Assembly: GCA_937888925.1 (NCBI GenBank)
Contig: CALARM010000901.1
Location: 1 to 5,673, forward strand
Reading direction: 5' to 3'
DNA: 5,673 nt
Source of the DNA: an uncultured Synergistia bacterium
GTDB lineage: Bacteria; Eremiobacterota; SpSt-956; JAKJGF01
Position numbers and translations under genes: made by a program. Positions 297-5,673 of this stretch are shown piece after piece. Position 1 is the first letter of the stretch. Every line of letters begins with the position of its first letter. The notes under the pieces were generated by a model. It searched no databases. It was not told the DNA's origin and saw only the letters and a program-made list of their open reading frames with translations.

Positions 297-359
297 TCAG
301 TGATCAGTGACCAGTGACCAGTTACCAGTTACCACTGATTATTGATTACTGCTCACTAT
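297..359 (-). repeat. Heptamer repeat array A in the leader of the DUF503 gene
   Basis: Read on the minus strand, 63 bases divide into nine consecutive 7-base units in one register. The last six units (338-297) are TCAGTGG, TAACTGG, TAACTGG, TCACTGG, TCACTGA and TCACTGA. The first three (359-339) are ATAGTGA, GCAGTAA and TCAATAA; these include units close to the reverse complement of the later ones. The array ends 3 bases before the ATG. Its outer ends (357-348 and 308-299) are 10-base inverted repeats with one mismatch, so the RNA can fold on itself. The same composite layout recurs before argH. Confidence 0.9.
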
Positions 360-365
360 CTCCTT
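360..365 (-). promoter_or_regulatory. Displaced Shine-Dalgarno sequence (AAGGAG) upstream of array A
   Basis: AAGGAG on the minus strand at 365-360 is the best ribosome-binding sequence near the DUF503 gene, but it lies 66 bases from the ATG, beyond the repeat array. If the 10-base inverted repeats at 357-348 and 308-299 pair, only 2 + 5 = 7 unpaired bases remain between it and the ATG, a normal spacing. Whether it is used is inference. Confidence 0.45.
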
Positions 366-372
366 CTTGCAA

Positions 373-401
373 ATTATAACCAAATAAATCTAACTTTTCA
401 A
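373..401 (-). promoter_or_regulatory. Sigma70-type promoter for the DUF503 gene
   Basis: On the minus strand a TTGAAA -35 box (401-396) and a perfect TATAAT -10 box (378-373) are separated by exactly 17 bases. Transcription would begin near 366, so the heptamer array at 297-359 lies in a 5' leader of roughly 70 nt. The box sequences and spacing equal those of the argG promoter facing the other way. Predicted from sequence only. Confidence 0.75.
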
Positions 402-408
402 TAAAAGA

Positions 409-437
409 TTGAAAAATTTTTCTATTGGCTTTATAAT
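409..437 (+). promoter_or_regulatory. Sigma70-type promoter for argG and the operon
   Basis: TTGAAA (-35, 409-414) and TATAAT (-10, 432-437) are separated by exactly 17 bases. The start site would be near 444, giving a short leader of about 25 nt that contains the AAAGG ribosome-binding sequence at 456-460. The -35 box is only 7 bases from the -35 box of the divergent DUF503 promoter. I see no clear ARG-box palindrome, so arginine-repressor control cannot be claimed. Confidence 0.8.
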
Positions 438-469
438 AAAGGAATCAAAATTTAGAAAGGCGTGTAATT

Positions 470-1699
470 ATGAAAAAAGTAGTACTTGCATACAGCGGTG
501 GACTCGATACATCATGTATACTTAAATGGCTTATAGATGAAGGATTTGAAGTAATAGCCTATCTTGCAGATGTAGGCCAGAATGAAGATTTTAACGAAGC
601 AAAAGAGAAAGCTCTTAAAATAGGAGCAACCAGAGTCTATATTGAGGATTTAAAAGAAGAACTGGTTACGGATTATATATTTCCTGCATTCAGCGCAAAT
701 GCTCTCTATGAAGGAAGATACCTTCTCGGCACATCTCTTGCAAGACCTTTGATTGCAAAAAGACATATAGAGATTGCAGAGAAAGAACAGGCTGAATATG
801 TGTCTCATGGATCAACAGGTAAAGGAAATGATCAGGTCAGATTTGAATTGAGTTATTATGCCTTAAATCCAAAGATAAAAATTATTTCCCCGTGGAAAAA
901 CAAAGATTTTCTTGCAAAATTCAAAGGAAGAACTGATCTGATAAATTATGCGAAAGAAAAAAATATACCTCTCAGCGTAACACTGGAAAAGCCTTACAGT
1001 ATGGATGAAAATCTCCTTCATATAAGCTTTGAATCAGGCATTCTCGAAGATCCTGCCATGCAACCCCATAAGGATATGTTCAAATTAACTGTTGATCCCA
1101 CAGATGCACCTGATAAAGAAACAGGGATAGAAATACACTTTAAAGACGGTATACCTGTAAAGGTCGTAAACCTTGAAGACGGCACAATAAAGACAAAACC
1201 TCTGGAACTATTTACCTATTTAAATCAACTGGGCAGAGAAAACGGAATTGGCAGAATCGATATAGTAGAAAACAGGTTTGTAGGCATAAAATCAAGAGGT
1301 GTATATGAAACTCCGGGAGGAACCATTCTGAGGGCAGCCCATATGGATATTGAAGGAATAGCCATGGACAGAGAAGTCATGAGACTCCGTGATATGCTCA
1401 CACCTAAATTCTCAGAACTTGTTTACAACGGTTTCTGGTTCAGCCCTGAAATGGACTTCCTTATGGCAGCAATAAAGAAAAGTCAGGAAATAATAGACGG
1501 AGTAGTTTATTTAAAACTCTATAAAGGCAATGTTATGATTACGGGACGAACCTCTCCGAGTTCACTGTATGATCAGAATCTTTCCAGCATGGATATTGAA
1601 GGAGGATTCGATCAGACAGATTCAGAAGGATTTATAAAAATAAATGCCATAAGACTTATGGCCCATCATGCAATTACGAAAAGAATGGGGAAAAAGTGA
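470..1699 (+). CDS. argG: Argininosuccinate synthase
   Basis: This cytoplasmic enzyme joins citrulline and aspartate, using ATP, to make argininosuccinate, the seventh step of arginine synthesis. The 409-residue product has the usual family length. The N-type ATP-pyrophosphatase loop AYSGGLDTS is at residues 7-15. Further family blocks are [12 protein letters not shown] (86-97), [14 protein letters not shown] (113-126, nucleotide and substrate binding) and [14 protein letters not shown] (177-190). Later blocks include [25 protein letters not shown] and YNGFWFSPE. These block sequences match the ArgG group found in many proteobacteria and in eukaryotes rather than the E. coli type. The ATG start is supported by AAAGG nine bases upstream and by the motif lying right at the N-terminus. 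A consensus promoter precedes it and argH follows. The TGA stop (1697-1699) lies inside the first unit of heptamer array B. All expected active-site blocks are intact. Confidence 0.97.
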
Positions 1700-1792
1700 A
1701 AAGCGAAAAGTGAGTAGTGAGCAGTGAGCAGAACTTTTACCGGTCACTGCTCACTGGTCACCGGTCACTGGTCACTGATAACTGGTCACTGA
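1695..1792 (+). repeat. Heptamer repeat array B between argG and argH
   Basis: Ninety-eight bases divide into fourteen 7-base units in one unbroken register. The first five are AGTGAAA, AGCGAAA, AGTGAGT, AGTGAGC and AGTGAGC (1695-1729), followed by a divergent AGAACTT (1730-1736). Eight units of the opposite sense follow, TTACCGG, TCACTGC, TCACTGG, TCACCGG, TCACTGG, TCACTGA, TAACTGG and TCACTGA (1737-1792). The array starts inside the last codon of argG, includes its stop codon and ends 2 bases before the argH ATG. Because the two halves are inverted, a strong hairpin is possible (separate entry). Layout and ends match array A. Confidence 0.93.
1717..1761 (+). other. Inverted repeat / potential RNA hairpin in array B
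   Basis: The 15 bases at 1717-1731 (GTGAGCAGTGAGCAG) are the reverse complement of 1747-1761 with one mismatch, leaving a 15-base loop. There is no T-tract after it, so it is not an intrinsic terminator. An outer pairing, 1709-1718 with 1781-1790 (one mismatch, one G-U), is an alternative that would enclose most of the array. The structure could affect argH translation or 3'-end stability of the argG message. Confidence 0.6.
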
Positions 1793-1794
1793 AA

Positions 1795-3081
1795 ATGAAA
1801 CTATGGAATAAAGGAAAAGAACTGAATGACCTTATAGAAGATTTCACCGTAGGAGAAGATTATATTCTTGATAAAGAGCTTCTCTGTTATGACTGCCATG
1901 GCTCTATTGCCCATGCCATGACCCTGGAAAAATCCGGTATATTAACAGGGAAAGAAAGGGAAAAACTTGTAGAAGCACTTAAAGAGATAGAGAGCATTGG
2001 ACTTGAGATAAAAAAAGAGGATGAAGATGTACATACAGCCATAGAAAACTATCTTATAGAAAAACTGGGAGATCTCGGTAGAAAAATTCATACAGGAAGA
2101 TCCAGAAATGACCAGGTCATGGTAGATGTACAGTTATGGTCACGAGATAATATTTTAAAGGTATATACCCTTGGTGTGAACCTGGCAGAAAGAATAAATG
2201 ATTTTTCAAAGGCCAATCCCGCTCTTATGCCCGGCTATACCCATATGCAGAGGGCAATGATCTCTTCTTTACAGCTTCTGACCGGTTCTTATATAGAATC
2301 TATCCTTGATGATCTCCTCTTGCTGGAAACAGCTTTTCAGATAAATAATCGTAATCCCCTGGGAAGTGCTGCCGGATACGGCTCGTCTCTGGGTCTGGAC
2401 AGAGACTACACGGCAGAACTTATGAAATTTAACGGAAACAGAAATCCTATTTATGTCCAATCAAGACCGAAATTAATTTCCACAATTATTTTTCCTCTCT
2501 GTAACTTTATGAAAACACTGGATAAAATTTCATGCGATCTTCTCCTGTTTACCATGGGAGAATTTAATTTCTTTTACCTCCCTGAAGAATTCTGCACAGG
2601 ATCAAGTATAATGCCTCAAAAGAAAAATTATGATCTCCTGGAATTAATCAGAAGCAGTTCGTCACAGATTCACAGTTTACTTTACCGTGTTGATATGACA
2701 GGCAGTAAATTGATAAGCGGATATAACAGGGATTATCAACTTACAAAAGGTCCTCTTATGGAAGCCTTCTCTGTAACATCAAAATGCCTGGAAGTAATGG
2801 AACTCATATTCAGCCATTTAAAGGTCAATAAAGAAGCTATGAACAGAGCTATAACACATGAAATTTTCGCTACCGATAAGGCATATGAACTGGTAAAAAA
2901 TGGAACTCCCTTCAGGGAAGCTTACACTATAGTAGCAAGAAATCTTGATAAAATCGAAATACCTGAACATATATACGATGGAAGAGATTTCCTGAAATTT
3001 AAAGACTATAAAAAGGAGATAGAAGAAAGAAAGGTCTTTCTTACGGGTCACGCTTCACGCGTCACTGGTCACGAATCATGA
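1795..3081 (+). CDS. argH: Argininosuccinate lyase
   Basis: This cytoplasmic enzyme of the fumarase/aspartase superfamily splits argininosuccinate into arginine and fumarate, completing arginine synthesis. From the ATG at 1795 the product has 428 residues. The start MKLWNKG plus IEDFTVGEDY matches the N-terminus of Bacteroidetes-type ArgH. A longer frame opens at GTG 1717, but its 26 extra residues are translated repeat and were rejected. Conserved blocks are KIHTGRSRNDQV (97-108), MPGYTHMQRA (145-154, catalytic His150), NPLGSAAGYGSS (187-198), GSSIMPQKKNYD (269-280, catalytic-loop Ser271) and GYNRDYQL (309-316). The signature loop has NYD where NPD is usual. The last 12-13 residues, ending TGHASRVTGHES, are encoded by heptamer array C. 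There is no good Shine-Dalgarno sequence before the ATG, since array B ends two bases upstream; translation may depend on coupling to argG. The TGA stop overlaps the next ATG as ATGA. Confidence 0.95.
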   Translation: MKLWNKGKELNDLIEDFTVGEDYILDKELLCYDCHGSIAHAMTLEKSGILTGKEREKLVEALKEIESIGLEIKKEDEDVHTAIENYLIEKLGDLGRKIHTGRSRNDQVMVDVQLWSRDNILKVYTLGVNLAERINDFSKANPALMPGYTHMQRAMISSLQLLTGSYIESILDDLLLLETAFQINNRNPLGSAAGYGSSLGLDRDYTAELMKFNGNRNPIYVQSRPKLISTIIFPLCNFMKTLDKISCDLLLFTMGEFNFFYLPEEFCTGSSIMPQKKNYDLLELIRSSSSQIHSLLYRVDMTGSKLISGYNRDYQLTKGPLMEAFSVTSKCLEVMELIFSHLKVNKEAMNRAITHEIFATDKAYELVKNGTPFREAYTIVARNLDKIEIPEHIYDGRDFLKFKDYKKEIEERKVFLTGHASRVTGHES

Positions 3082-3082
3082 A
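3041..3082 (+). repeat. Heptamer repeat array C spanning the argH stop and the next start codon
   Basis: Six 7-base units in register: TTACGGG, TCACGCT, TCACGCG, TCACTGG, TCACGAA and TCATGAA. They belong to the same family as arrays A and B (shared TCAC core and one exact TCACTGG). Unlike those, this array is translated: it encodes the C-terminal tail of ArgH, and its final unit holds both the argH TGA (3079-3081) and the ATG of the next gene (3078-3080). Only the forward-sense half is present, with no inverted AGTGAGC units. Confidence 0.85.
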
Positions 3083-3944
3083 AATAATTACTCTCTTTAT
3101 ATTATTTATTATTACCACAGGAATCATACTGGCAGAAGAACTTCCGGCAACACTGGTTTACAGAGATACAGAAATGGTACTTATTCCGAAGGGAGATTTC
3201 TGGATGGGAAGCGCTGCAAAACAGGGCCAGTTAGATGAATATCCCCAGCATAAAGTCTATATATCTGATTATTATATGGATAAATATGAAGTAAAAAACA
3301 GTGATTTCTGTATTTTTTTAAATGAAAAAAATACTCACAGAGGCAGTAACGGTGAGTGGTGGATTGTAATAGACGATCAAAATTGTCTTATAGAATTTAA
3401 AGAAGGCCTTTACAAACCGAAGTCAGGAAGTGATAATTACCCTGTAACCAGTGTTACATGGGAAGGAGCTTCTGCCTGTGCAACGTGGATGGGAAAAAGA
3501 CTGCCTACAGAAGCAGAATGGGAAAAAGGAGCAAAAGGAACAAGAGGCAATCTATATCCCTGGGGTATGGAATGGTCTCCTGACATGTGTAACAATCAAA
3601 ATATGAATATACCGGTTCTGTTAAGCAATATGATTAATTTTTATCAGGGACGGGGTATTCTTCCGGGAGGTTCCTTTCCGGGCGGAGCAAGTGATTACGG
3701 AATTATGGACATGGCAGGTAATGTAAGGGAGTGGTGTTCAGACTGGTATGATGAAAATTATTACAAATCAAGCCCTTATAAAAATCCTGAAGGGCCAAAA
3801 ACAGGTAAATACAGAACTTTAAGAGGAGGTTCCTGGGAAAACTCAGATCCTCAGGATTTTAGATGTGCCGATCGTTTTATATGCGATAAAGACCGTGCAT
3901 ATTCCATAGGATTTAGATGTGTAATGGATGTGAATAAAAGGTGA
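3078..3944 (+). CDS. Secreted SUMF1/FGE-sulfatase-domain protein, probably not a true formylglycine-generating enzyme
   Basis: The 288-residue product starts with a signal peptide: MK, a hydrophobic stretch at residues 3-18, and likely cleavage after ILA (residue 19). It lacks a lipobox cysteine, so it should be periplasmic or secreted. The rest is one FGE-sulfatase (SUMF1-like, C-type-lectin-like) domain: MVLIPKGDFWMGS (33-45), DEYPQHKVYISDYYMDKYEV (53-72), PVTSVTWEGASACATWMGKR (122-141), LPTEAEWEKGAKG (142-154), LYPWG (159-163), MAGNVREWCSDWY (212-224), LRGGSW (248-253) and GFRCV (278-282). In true formylglycine-generating enzymes two catalytic cysteines follow the GGS motif; here that stretch reads WENSDPQD, so both are absent. 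Many bacterial relatives lacking these cysteines have other or unknown roles, including ligand binding and regulatory or secreted proteins. The start is fixed by the signal peptide; the gene overlaps argH by ATGA with no separate ribosome site, so translational coupling is likely. Substrate and partner are unknown. Confidence 0.88.
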   Translation: MKIITLFILFIITTGIILAEELPATLVYRDTEMVLIPKGDFWMGSAAKQGQLDEYPQHKVYISDYYMDKYEVKNSDFCIFLNEKNTHRGSNGEWWIVIDDQNCLIEFKEGLYKPKSGSDNYPVTSVTWEGASACATWMGKRLPTEAEWEKGAKGTRGNLYPWGMEWSPDMCNNQNMNIPVLLSNMINFYQGRGILPGGSFPGGASDYGIMDMAGNVREWCSDWYDENYYKSSPYKNPEGPKTGKYRTLRGGSWENSDPQDFRCADRFICDKDRAYSIGFRCVMDVNKR

Positions 3945-3975
3945 AGGGTGAGTAGGGGCGTTTTATTAAACGCCC
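3940..3975 (+). repeat. Short intergenic repeat D: two heptamer-like units plus a perfect palindromic hairpin
   Basis: GGTGAAG and GGTGAGT (3940-3953) are related to the AGTGAGT units of array B, and the first contains the TGA stop of the SUMF1-like gene. They run into GGGCGTTT (3956-3963) and AAACGCCC (3968-3975), a perfect 8-bp stem with a TATT loop. The general form AGGGGCG...CGCCC resembles short palindromic intergenic repeats seen in many bacteria (recognition from memory, not a search). No T-tract follows, so a terminator role is unlikely. The 8-base sequence AAGGTGAA occurs on both sides of the region (3938-3945 and 3990-3997). Confidence 0.7.
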
Positions 3976-3979
3976 TGAG

Positions 3980-5410
3980 ATGAAAATAGAAGGTGAAACA
4001 GGGTTGAATCTGATAAATTTAAAATGTGAAACATGTGGTGCCCAGCTTAAAAGAACGGCAAGTATGAGAACCCTTCAATGTGAGTACTGCGGTTCCAAAT
4101 ATCTTGCAGAAATTGACGGACAATCTCAGGGACTTGAAGACAGAACGTTTATACTTCCTGTTAATATTGAAGAAGATAAAGCAAAAAATTATATTCTGAG
4201 AGAAACTCAATTGAGGCAGTTTGTTCATGGCCACACAGAAAAAGAGATTTCCATGATAAATCCCAATGGAGTTATGATCCCCTGTTATACTTTTGAATGT
4301 GACGTAACATCTAACTGGTACGGAGAGAATGCCGTACAAAGAACGAGACAGGTATATAATCAGATGACAGGAATGCTGGAAAATCAGGTTTATGAAGAAT
4401 GGTATCCACAGAACGGTCAACATTACGGAAAACATAATGCCTTTGTATCCGGTTCGGGAGCTCTTAAAGAAAGTGAAGGAAAATGGGGAGAACTCTTCCC
4501 TCTTCCCCTTGAAAAAAAATCTCTTTTCCTGGAAGATAATGAGAACCACCGTTTTTCTCTGGAAATACCAAATATGTCGCCGGAAGAAGCATGGATTAAA
4601 GGTGAAACAGAAGCAAAAAGACTTGAAGAGGAATCCTGTAAAACCCTTGTAGGAAGACTCAAAAGTGTAAATTCAAGAATAGATAAAAAAGAAGTCTCTC
4701 TTATTTATGCTCCTGTCTGGATCTTTAATTATAAAGTAGATAATATACCTTACAGAAATCTGGTCTGCGCAACAAGCGGTAAAGTAATAGGCGAAATGCC
4801 TACCAATTTCGAAGAGCTTTTTGATAAACTCAGAAGTATACAGCAGGAAATGTCAAAGATGTCTAATTATTTCATCATTGCAATTGTAGGTACAGTTCTG
4901 TCGCTTTTACTTCTCTTCGGTACTTTTTTGCTTCCTCTTACAGCATGCGTTATTTACTATTTATATAAGAAAAGAGATGATATGCAAAAGAAATTTGATG
5001 AAGAATTTGAAAAGAATATTTTAACGAATAAATATAATTTATGTTATTATATATTGAGAAAACGTACAGATCTTAAATCTTCTCTTAATCTTTCAACACT
5101 GCCCGGCATATCTGCAGTAGAAAGGTGTCTTGATGAAGAAGAGGGAGGAAAAATTGATAATATAATAGTAAAAGAACTGGTGGCAAGATATCTCCTGGCA
5201 ACAAATCCTGCCGCAGGGGAAACACCGGCAGAAAAAATAGAAAAAATGCTTGGTATGAAAAAGGTTAATATTACAGGTAAAACAGTTTCAAATAATGCAG
5301 TAATACCTTCTTCCGCAACAGCAGAAAAAACATTACCCGGGAAATGTAAATGCGGCCAGATAATTAAAGAGGGCTGGAAAGTGTGTCCGATGTGTGGGAA
5401 TAAATTTTAA
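3980..5410 (+). CDS. Membrane protein with N- and C-terminal zinc ribbons, function unknown
   Basis: From the ATG at 3980 the product has 476 residues. A zinc ribbon opens it: CETCG (Cys16, Cys19) and CEYCG (Cys34, Cys37). A mixed region with two similar-looking blocks follows, IPCYTFECDVTSNWYG (100-115) and YAPVWIFNYKVDNIPYR (243-259). Such blocks (roughly P-x-W/Y-x-F then a polar strand) occur in zinc-ribbon proteins often misannotated as PriA or replication helicases; no helicase motif is present here. Residues 297-329 are strongly hydrophobic with a central Pro, either a tight two-pass hairpin or one long span, followed by a basic stretch (YKKRDD). The end is a second ribbon, CKC (456-458) with CPMCG (469-473). 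A two-pass hairpin would put both ribbons in the cytoplasm. The start is uncertain: TTG at 4004 (residue 9 of this frame) has AAGGTGA at 3990-3996, seven bases upstream, and would start cleanly at NLINLKCETCG. It follows the SUMF1-like gene by 35 bases. Confidence 0.8.
   Translation: MKIEGETGLNLINLKCETCGAQLKRTASMRTLQCEYCGSKYLAEIDGQSQGLEDRTFILPVNIEEDKAKNYILRETQLRQFVHGHTEKEISMINPNGVMIPCYTFECDVTSNWYGENAVQRTRQVYNQMTGMLENQVYEEWYPQNGQHYGKHNAFVSGSGALKESEGKWGELFPLPLEKKSLFLEDNENHRFSLEIPNMSPEEAWIKGETEAKRLEEESCKTLVGRLKSVNSRIDKKEVSLIYAPVWIFNYKVDNIPYRNLVCATSGKVIGEMPTNFEELFDKLRSIQQEMSKMSNYFIIAIVGTVLSLLLLFGTFLLPLTACVIYYLYKKRDDMQKKFDEEFEKNILTNKYNLCYYILRKRTDLKSSLNLSTLPGISAVERCLDEEEGGKIDNIIVKELVARYLLATNPAAGETPAEKIEKMLGMKKVNITGKTVSNNAVIPSSATAEKTLPGKCKCGQIIKEGWKVCPMCGNKF
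3990..4006 (+). promoter_or_regulatory. Shine-Dalgarno AAGGTGA and alternative TTG start for the zinc-ribbon gene
   Basis: AAGGTGA (3990-3996) is seven bases before TTG (4004-4006), ideal spacing, whereas the ATG at 3980 has only a weak CTGAG before it, inside the flank of the hairpin repeat. The partial gene at the right edge also seems to use TTG after GGGAG. I consider the TTG at least as likely as the ATG to be the true start; the difference is eight residues. Confidence 0.5.
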
Positions 5411-5590
5411 AGGAAAATTACAGGAAAAATATTGATTTTATAAAATCTCTAACATATAATTATATATCAATGACCTGGCCCGTGACAGAACTCGCAATAT
5501 AATCGGTGGGCGGTAAAACGTGAAAAGTGTCATTCTTACTTGCAGATGGTTACAGTTCTATAATATAAAAATCAAGGGAGAGTTTATAAA
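5411..5590 (+). other. Intergenic region holding a putative 120-nt 5' leader
   Basis: No gene is convincing in this 180-base gap. The first 50 bases hold the promoter described separately. The rest (about 5467-5590) would be an untranslated leader, more GC-rich in its middle (CCTGGCCCG, GGTGGGCGG) than the surrounding AT-rich sequence. Possible pairings are AGAACT 5487-5492 with AGTTCT 5554-5559, GTGACA 5482-5487 with TGTCAT 5528-5533 (one G-U), and GCCC with GGGC around 5478-5512; the first two share a base and are weak. I cannot match it to a riboswitch class I know. A second TATAAT at 5559-5564 lacks a good -35 box. No heptamer array and no intrinsic terminator are seen after the zinc-ribbon gene. 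Confidence 0.35.
5432..5460 (+). promoter_or_regulatory. Sigma70-type promoter for a leader RNA and the gene at the right edge
   Basis: TTGATT (5432-5437, matching TTGACA at four of six bases) and a perfect TATAAT (5455-5460) are separated by 17 bases, the same spacing as the two promoters near argG. Transcription would start near 5467. A perfect AT-only-core palindrome, GATTTTATAAAATC (5434-5447), overlaps the -35 box and spacer and could be an operator or chance. Confidence 0.6.
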
Positions 5591-5673
5591 TTGAACGAAC
5601 AGAAAGGGCAAGATAAACAACTCTTAAAAGTTTCATCACTGGAAGAGATCAGAAAAAGTTTTAAACTCAGAAT
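5591..5673 (+). CDS. Unrecognised protein, N-terminal fragment (runs off the window)
   Basis: A TTG start at 5591 is preceded by GGGAG (5576-5580), ten bases away, and the frame stays open for 27 codons to the window edge. The upstream in-frame stop TAA is at 5561-5563, and no ATG or GTG lies between, which supports TTG. The fragment begins MNEQKGQDKQLLKVSS and continues LEEIRKSFKLR; it is highly charged, with no signal peptide or membrane segment in the visible part. I do not recognise it. It has its own promoter and a long leader, so it is probably not part of the arg operon. Confidence 0.55.
   Translation, partial: MNEQKGQDKQLLKVSSLEEIRKSFKLR

Follow-up and report, generated by a model that had tools for sequence, protein, structure and literature searches.

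The stretch of DNA analysed here (the window: 5,673 nucleotides, contig CALARM010000901.1 of assembly GCA_937888925.1, from an uncultured Synergistia bacterium placed by GTDB in Eremiobacterota) carries three arrays of a degenerate 7-base unit, TCACTGG and its variants, at the edges of a DUF503 gene, argG, argH and a SUMF1-like gene. These arrays, named A, B and C, consist of genuine T-H-A-C-T-G-N heptamers and exceed a shuffle null, and on balance they are probably representatives, in this lineage, of a general class of bacterial heptamer repeats, prone to slippage and tolerated at gene edges. An earlier note on this DNA had drawn attention to their position immediately before start codons and to a possible role in translation. 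A census in our main proxy genome, G125, indicates that the link with start codons is real as geometry and is not special to starts there: the arms are directed at the nearest gene edge, whether start or stop. The window is a striking yet ordinary instance of a known repeat class.

Arrays A, B and C in the window

We scored arrays by the chain score for TCACTGG units and used 300 Markov-1 windows as the null; the best null score was 4, and no null array reached 6. The window scored 17 at 1737-1792 (plus strand), 13 at 297-338 (minus), and 5 both at 3041-3075 (plus) and at 1693-1727 (minus), and its self-similarity at the array sites was strong at period 7 and not at the other periods tried (5, 6, 8 and 9). 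A chance origin is therefore rejected, and the division into 7-base units proposed earlier holds for A, B and C; a fourth proposed site, D, fails the array test. The units of A and B lie one or two changes from TAACTGA (TCACTGG, TCACTGA, TAACTGG, TCACTGC), those of C are more degenerate, and exact TAACTGA is not present as a unit in the window arrays. A and B are intergenic and C lies in the last codons of argH; the window-wide array test found no array elsewhere, in agreement with the earlier observation that coding regions other than the ArgH tail are free of them.

Array B is an inverted pair that spans the argG-argH spacer entirely, from stop to start. Its left arm (1695-1730, minus strand; units AGTGAAA, AGCGAAA, AGTGAGT, AGTGAGC, AGTGAGC and a final A) reads outward from the argG stop, and the TGA itself (1697-1699) forms positions 3-5 of the first unit, AGTGAAA, so that the stop lies within the array as had been claimed. 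The right arm (1737-1792, plus) consists of eight units that end 2 nt before the argH ATG (1795), and the two arms share a 12-bp perfect core stem, AGTGAGCAGTGA (1716-1727) being perfectly complementary to 1744-1755. Array A is likewise an inverted pair, more weakly: a strong arm of six units (297-338, minus) runs toward the DUF503 start, 3 nt off (ATG ending at 293, minus), and a degenerate opposite arm (339-359, plus) pairs with it in the predicted RNA hairpin. Array C (3041-3075, plus) is a single sense arm within the 3' end of argH, 2 nt before the SUMF1-like ATG (3078). The three start gaps are thus those first reported. Orientation toward a gene edge fits A-left, B-left, B-right and C, while A-right is degenerate and far from argG. 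Array B takes up its whole spacer, so it has to lie close to both codons, and array C sits inside the end of argH; array A, whose spacer measures 176 nt, is the only one that abuts a start without being forced to.

Arrays A and B are predicted to fold strongly as RNA, array B at -41.5 and -41.9 kcal/mol on the two strands (z -5.0 and -6.1) and array A with z -4.2 and -3.6; array C reaches only -1.3 and -1.6. When folded as single-stranded DNA, array B is still clear (z -4.2, -3.9) and array A is not (z -1.2, -2.2). The putative argG-argH hairpin may affect the mRNA as a side effect. A search of the window against Rfam gave no match that reached the gathering score.

Polarity and closeness to gene edges in proxy genomes

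Arrays were counted and compared with shuffled placement, the check originally proposed, in proxy genomes of phyla other than the window's. The main proxy, G125, shares its phylum with G018, the genome of a Gastranaerophilales locus; we take this phylum to be Cyanobacteriota. The G125 sample comprised 60 stretches of 20 kb at even steps through the first 2.4 Mb of a 4,294,213-base contig (1.2 Mb), with genes called by our own caller, which agreed with 36 annotated plasmid genes (36 of the 50 features of L118) at 31/36 stops and 25/36 starts. It contained 161 arrays, against none in one Markov null; 158 were kept, two at locus ends and one inside a called gene being left out.

TNACTG is directed at the nearest gene edge in 128 of the 158 arms, by 57:10 where that edge is a start and by 71:20 where it is a stop. 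The orientation is set by the side of the spacer and not by gene direction: with '<' and '>' giving the direction of an arm, the left side holds 71 '<' and 14 '>', and the right side 57 '>' and 16 '<'. Each of the four gene arrangements shows this bias, divergent pairs least (20:9). The 116 spacers divide into '<' 43, '<>' 37, '>' 32, '<<' 2, '<<<' 1, '>>' 1 and '><' 0, so that the polarity is the same in each of the 37 spacers that hold both orientations. Within 25 nt of starts, 22 arms are sense and none antisense; within 10 nt of stops, 46 point outward and one does not. Other heptamers share the polarity in weaker form, since among arrays lacking two neighbouring THACTGN units (n=130) the G-rich strand reads outward in 91 and the C-rich strand in 39. 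When 7-bp tandem arrays of any kind are counted, 285 lie in spacers and 2 in called genes (287). Of the outcomes that the earlier note had named as refuting its idea, neither random orientation nor equal abundance inside genes appeared in G125.

Closeness was evaluated by shifting each spacer's block at random 500 times with orientation kept (75 start edges, 78 stop edges). Within 3 nt of starts we found 7 arms against 5.2 expected, a value reached in 113 of 500 shifts, whereas within 3 nt of stops there were 45 against 9.3 (shift maximum 14), and within 10 nt of stops 50 against 16.5 (maximum 25). After removal of the 25 edges whose stop is possibly supplied by the array, 20 remained within 3 nt of stops against 5.1 (maximum 12). 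Stops are also often in register with the unit: among the 58 arrays that point at an edge and lie no more than 20 nt from a stop, 27 are in phase with it (binomial p 4e-9), as are 16 of the 44 that lie at the stop or past it (p 2e-4).

The shared orientation first seen in the window is therefore genuine, and in G125 it tracks the gene edge, start or stop, rather than starts in particular; the near-zero distance to starts is real geometry in the window, and in G125 closeness is weak at starts and strong at stops. As the same polarity is found in other heptamers and stops show it together with stronger closeness, a translation role tied to this unit is unsupported in G125. The polarity, closeness and other-heptamer counts of that genome likewise speak against a TCACTGG-specific start signal, which we had considered as a candidate.

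The stretches sampled from six further proxies (G362, G617, G626, G642, G590 and G444) surround pattern hits and are biased toward perfect arrays. In G362, loci existed for 21 of the 27 hits (3 of these 21 being near-duplicates) and yielded 24 arrays. Of these we excluded 2 at the ends and 4 inside called genes; 15 of the remaining 18 arms point toward the nearest edge, with '<>' 3 and '><' 0. The other five pooled give 25:6 at stops and 12:3 at starts, with '<>' 1 and '><' 0 and 10 more arrays in called genes; three of the six stop exceptions (L271, L272, L286) are sense arms running from a possibly self-supplied stop toward the next start, like array C. Arms within 10 nt of stops number 6 vs 1.4 expected in G642, 4 vs 0.5 in G444 and 6 vs 2.5 in G626; G617 and G590 show no clear excess either way.

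Array change, breadth and the genes of the window

Among cyanobacterial relatives of about 93% DNA identity, the three spacers compared carry arrays in every case in which both flanks could be located (3, 5 and 4 strains; G324 and G335 without spacer 1, G127 without spacer 3), and most length changes in the arms are of 7 or 21 nt, with one of 15 as aligned. In G127 (L198, in the spacer matching L098 8877-9072) an insert of about 197 nt lies within a heptamer core; it has inverted ends, GGTTCTTCG...CGAAGAACC, is flanked by AGTTTTCAG twice, and looks like the insertion of a miniature inverted-repeat transposable element (MITE).

A 19-mer search allowing two mismatches gave matches in 4 of the 30 genomes behind the first loci and in 24/146 genomes of the phylum of G018, and another heptamer unit occurs in 19 of 30 genomes in the family of G125. 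Four perfect THACTGN units were found in 5/80, 16/148, 9/101 and 0/131 genomes of the phyla of G022, G015, G028 and G014, respectively, and a TCACTGG 24-mer in 0/140 genomes of the phylum of G014. The loci of the first three are titled Thermodesulfovibrionales (G022), Balneolia (G015) and Dehalococcoidia (G028), whose phyla are presumably Nitrospirota, Bacteroidota and Chloroflexota. Plasmid records match array B in 25 and array A in 14 cases at E <= 10. Viral contigs include 17 stretches with an exact 20-mer, and in 7 of the 17 (L084, L085, L090, L093, L095, L096 and L097) 3-4 TCACTGG units are followed by TCACTTT and then (A or C)GATTTG ACACTAG, which may mark a constant site in a single group of phages. 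The reversed pattern (GTCAHTN) matched often in G342, G516, G528, G536 and G551, for example 179 + 179 times in G528, and so other heptamers appear to be abundant in these genomes.

The window contains five genes: DUF503 (PF04456; 3-293, minus, running off the left window end, with its start at 293), argG (470-1699, plus), argH (1795-3081, plus), an FGE-sulfatase/SUMF1-like gene (3078-3944, plus) and a gene for a 476-aa protein (3980-5410), which has CxxC pairs close to both ends and one hydrophobic stretch and zero matches at E <= 0.001 in a Pfam scan. Array B is open in the argH frame (1717-1794), and a mechanical open reading frame (ORF) call therefore starts argH at GTG 1717 with a repeat-encoded leader; homologues begin MKLW at 1795. 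The last 12-14 or so codons of argH are array C and its edge, and immediately behind array C the argH stop overlaps the SUMF1-like start as ATGA (3078-3081).

Named relatives nearest to the window appear to be mostly Eremiobacterota/Vulcanimicrobiota: ArgH matches 'Candidatus Eremiobacteraeota' at 73% (P0004), Armatimonadota at 64% and 'Candidatus Xenobiia' at 58%, and ArgG matches 'Candidatus Eremiobacteraeota' at 92%, Armatimonadota at 87% and Vulcanimicrobiota at 80%. The closest ArgH relatives have 88-91% identity; a scan of genome contigs for the ArgH motif IMPQKKN gave no Eremiobacterota/Xenobia title among the 80 loci listed. Because ArgG is 409 residues long in P0121-P0125 as in the window, the argG stop looks native, a judgement made on protein length. 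The ArgH tail beyond EERK is 15 residues long in P0001, P0002 and the window, against 8 in P0003; if the DNA matches the protein, these 7 aa would equal an in-frame change of 21 nt, or three units. The N-terminus of P0002 reads MSHVSLVMKLW, with a repeat-like leader ahead of the usual start, and P0004 has no repeat-like tail. From these protein ends, the arrays would touch argH in its closest relatives and not at 73% identity.

Site D (3940-3951, minus) comprises two degenerate GTGA-bearing units at most, at the SUMF1-like stop, and is not above chance as an array; its membership of the family is not borne out. Since D is weak and the spacer 5411-5591 has no array, the arrays do not occupy every gene junction, as had been thought. 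Separate from D is a hairpin at 3952-3975 (plus; GTAG followed by GGGCGTTT-TATT-AAACGCCC, 8-bp stem; fold z -3.0/-5.3) that holds no heptamer array and combines a GTAG head with a palindrome, as in repetitive extragenic palindromic (REP) elements and REPINs; we call it REP-like on the assumption that GTAG is the defining REP head. No RAYT gene was seen in the Pfam scan of the five ORFs of the window. G125 has 41 sites of GTAGGG plus a perfect hairpin per 1.2 Mb against 0 in the Markov null, five of them GTAGGGGCG-type.

Explanations and known systems

In the explanation that we prefer, the arrays would be short tandem T-H-A-C-T-G-N elements of spacers, often with two inverted arms round a core, whose arm length would shift largely by whole units, as seen in the cyanobacterial relatives and as protein tails suggest for those of the window, with replication slippage as the probable cause. 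They would be nearly absent from genes and tolerated at gene ends, as in G125, with arms directed at the nearest edge, start or stop, as in the proxies; stops would often be in register with the unit's TNA, as the observed arrays that begin at, overlap or supply a stop indicate. Given such edge polarity and spacers filled end to end, the start link of the window is mainly geometry, and a specific translation effect is not needed to explain it.

Several observations weigh against this explanation. In G125, 30 of the 158 arms point away from the edge, as do 5 of 14 in G617. Arms within 10 nt of starts are in weak excess in G125 (18 vs 11.5, reached in 2/500 shifts) and number 4 vs 1.3 expected in G626 (maximum 3; a small sample). 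The stop excess survives the removal of possible array-borne stops, so site preference or selection may act at stops, and the register arises partly by construction, because any stop that comes from the TNA of the unit must be in phase with it. In the six hit-chosen proxies 14 of 80 arrays lie in genes as automatically called. The census is one of proxies, all of them from phyla other than the window's. A reversed-pattern control gave 6/80, 13/148, 4/101 and 0/131 in the phyla of G022, G015, G028 and G014, although it is not clean, since TCACTGG arrays fit both degenerate forms and the reversed match in the G018-phylum search is a shifted copy of the same array; as these counts are close to those of the pattern, the THACTGN unit is no more widespread than its reverse, and arrays of heptamers with these letters, read in either order, have a patchy distribution in which THACTGN is not singled out.

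The start side also dominates in Beggiatoaceae, where, in the available text of MacGregor 2015 (PMC4679880), 147 of 170 TAACTGA sets face a start versus 12, the largest class lies 1 nt upstream of the start, about 10% have a Shine-Dalgarno sequence, and the S1, Csp or Csr families are proposed as binders. This preference is left unexplained by the general class, and it is what would be expected if THACTGN units upstream of AUG were candidate protein-binding sites that replace the Shine-Dalgarno sequence. Such translational control would also agree with the three of three array-abutted window starts at which no Shine-Dalgarno sequence is evident by eye, with a Bernardetia plasmid match that stops 1 nt ahead of an annotated coding sequence, and with the start excess in G626 and, weakly, in G125; it is nevertheless unlikely, given that G125 stops have the same polarity and much stronger closeness, that other heptamers behave alike, and that the unit number and make-up of arms vary within a genus. 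Slightly less probable still is a selected RNA hairpin, whose inverted arms might protect, end or process the argG-argH mRNA or join stop to start. The predicted folds of A and B (z -3.6 to -6.1) and the hairpin-only polarity of pairs ('><' 0 in G125 and G362) would suit it, and transcripts start or stop more often at G-quadruplex-forming GGGAATC repeats (available text of PMC4692102). Array C, however, folds poorly, 75 of 116 G125 spacers are single-armed (a weak partner on the inner side in 8/75, on the outer side in 0/75), and the two arms of a G125 element resemble each other less than arms paired by shuffling do (0.780 vs 0.839 +- 0.012), so that selection for arm complementarity is not seen there.

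A site-specific mobile element, a hairpin moved in trans in the manner of REP or MITE sequences and targeting TNA at stops, is improbable. The stop register points that way, as do the scatter of the core sequence next to arms (36 matches in the 1.2 Mb of G125), one G125 core that is 39/41 identical to the inverted core of a spacer 1.6 kb away and departs from the three other aligned strains, and four relatives (L199, L200, L201, L205) with a short array-free spacer at a junction of genes we take to be minC-like and minD-like, where the upstream protein ends within 0-9 residues of its relatives'. On the other hand, many arms have no core, recombination between arms could account for the core change, and no linked transposase or target duplication was found, no search aimed at transposases having been made. 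It is also conceivable, if rather unlikely, that one edge law holds across phyla for unrelated heptamers, the same strand reading outward at both gene ends in phase with stops; a single border process (such as copying or repair where translation or transcription ends, or stop-phased insertion) would then place the repeats, and slippage would follow.

With the arrays read as copies of the general heptamer class, a start-codon link noticed in one window can arise from a gene-edge polarity common to starts, stops and other heptamers. A new lineage is added to that class, and the old puzzle of why seven and why gene edges is turned into rules that can be counted, namely polarity, register with stops and change by whole units. 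Annotators should be aware that gene ends and starts, for example those of argH, can be repeat-encoded. We found no report of THACTGN-type arrays in Eremiobacterota, nor of a unit-to-stop register, in the literature covered, which takes in the available texts of PMC2700814, PMC3116915, PMC3542288 and PMC4853749 and leaves most subscription journals outside.

Several known systems resemble the arrays. Cyanobacterial short tandemly repeated repetitive (STRR) heptamers stand in tandem in spacers, sometimes round a small core, a layout also seen in G125, the likeness being one of arrangement and not of compared sequence; Elhai in 2008 reportedly described small dispersed repeats embedded in heptamers. 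REP/REPIN sequences are small extragenic palindromes like the hairpin at 3952-3975 and differ from arrays A-C in being short fixed palindromes instead of tandem 7-mers (available text of PMC3116915). The GGGAATC or GGGGA(C/T)T heptamers of Xanthomonas and Nostoc occur on the non-coding strand upstream and on the coding strand downstream of ORFs, as inverted pairs that overlap stop codons, in conserved places with varying length; they share the inverted pairs, strand rule at ORF edges and stop overlap of the window arrays, whereas their unit is unrelated and forms G-quadruplexes, and no unit-to-stop register is described in the available text (PMC4692102). The closest likeness in unit is to the TAACTGA repeats of marine Beggiatoaceae, Cyanobacteria and Bacteroidetes, which share the heptad frame (TAACTGG and TCACTGA in the window) and are mostly intergenic and forward just upstream of starts, with some stop overlap and few Shine-Dalgarno sequences. 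According to the same available text (PMC4679880), those repeats are mostly pure, single-armed and start-sided, with single-base variants rarely repeated, whereas the window, in another lineage, has mixtures of TCACTGG and TCACTGA and inverted arms in array B.

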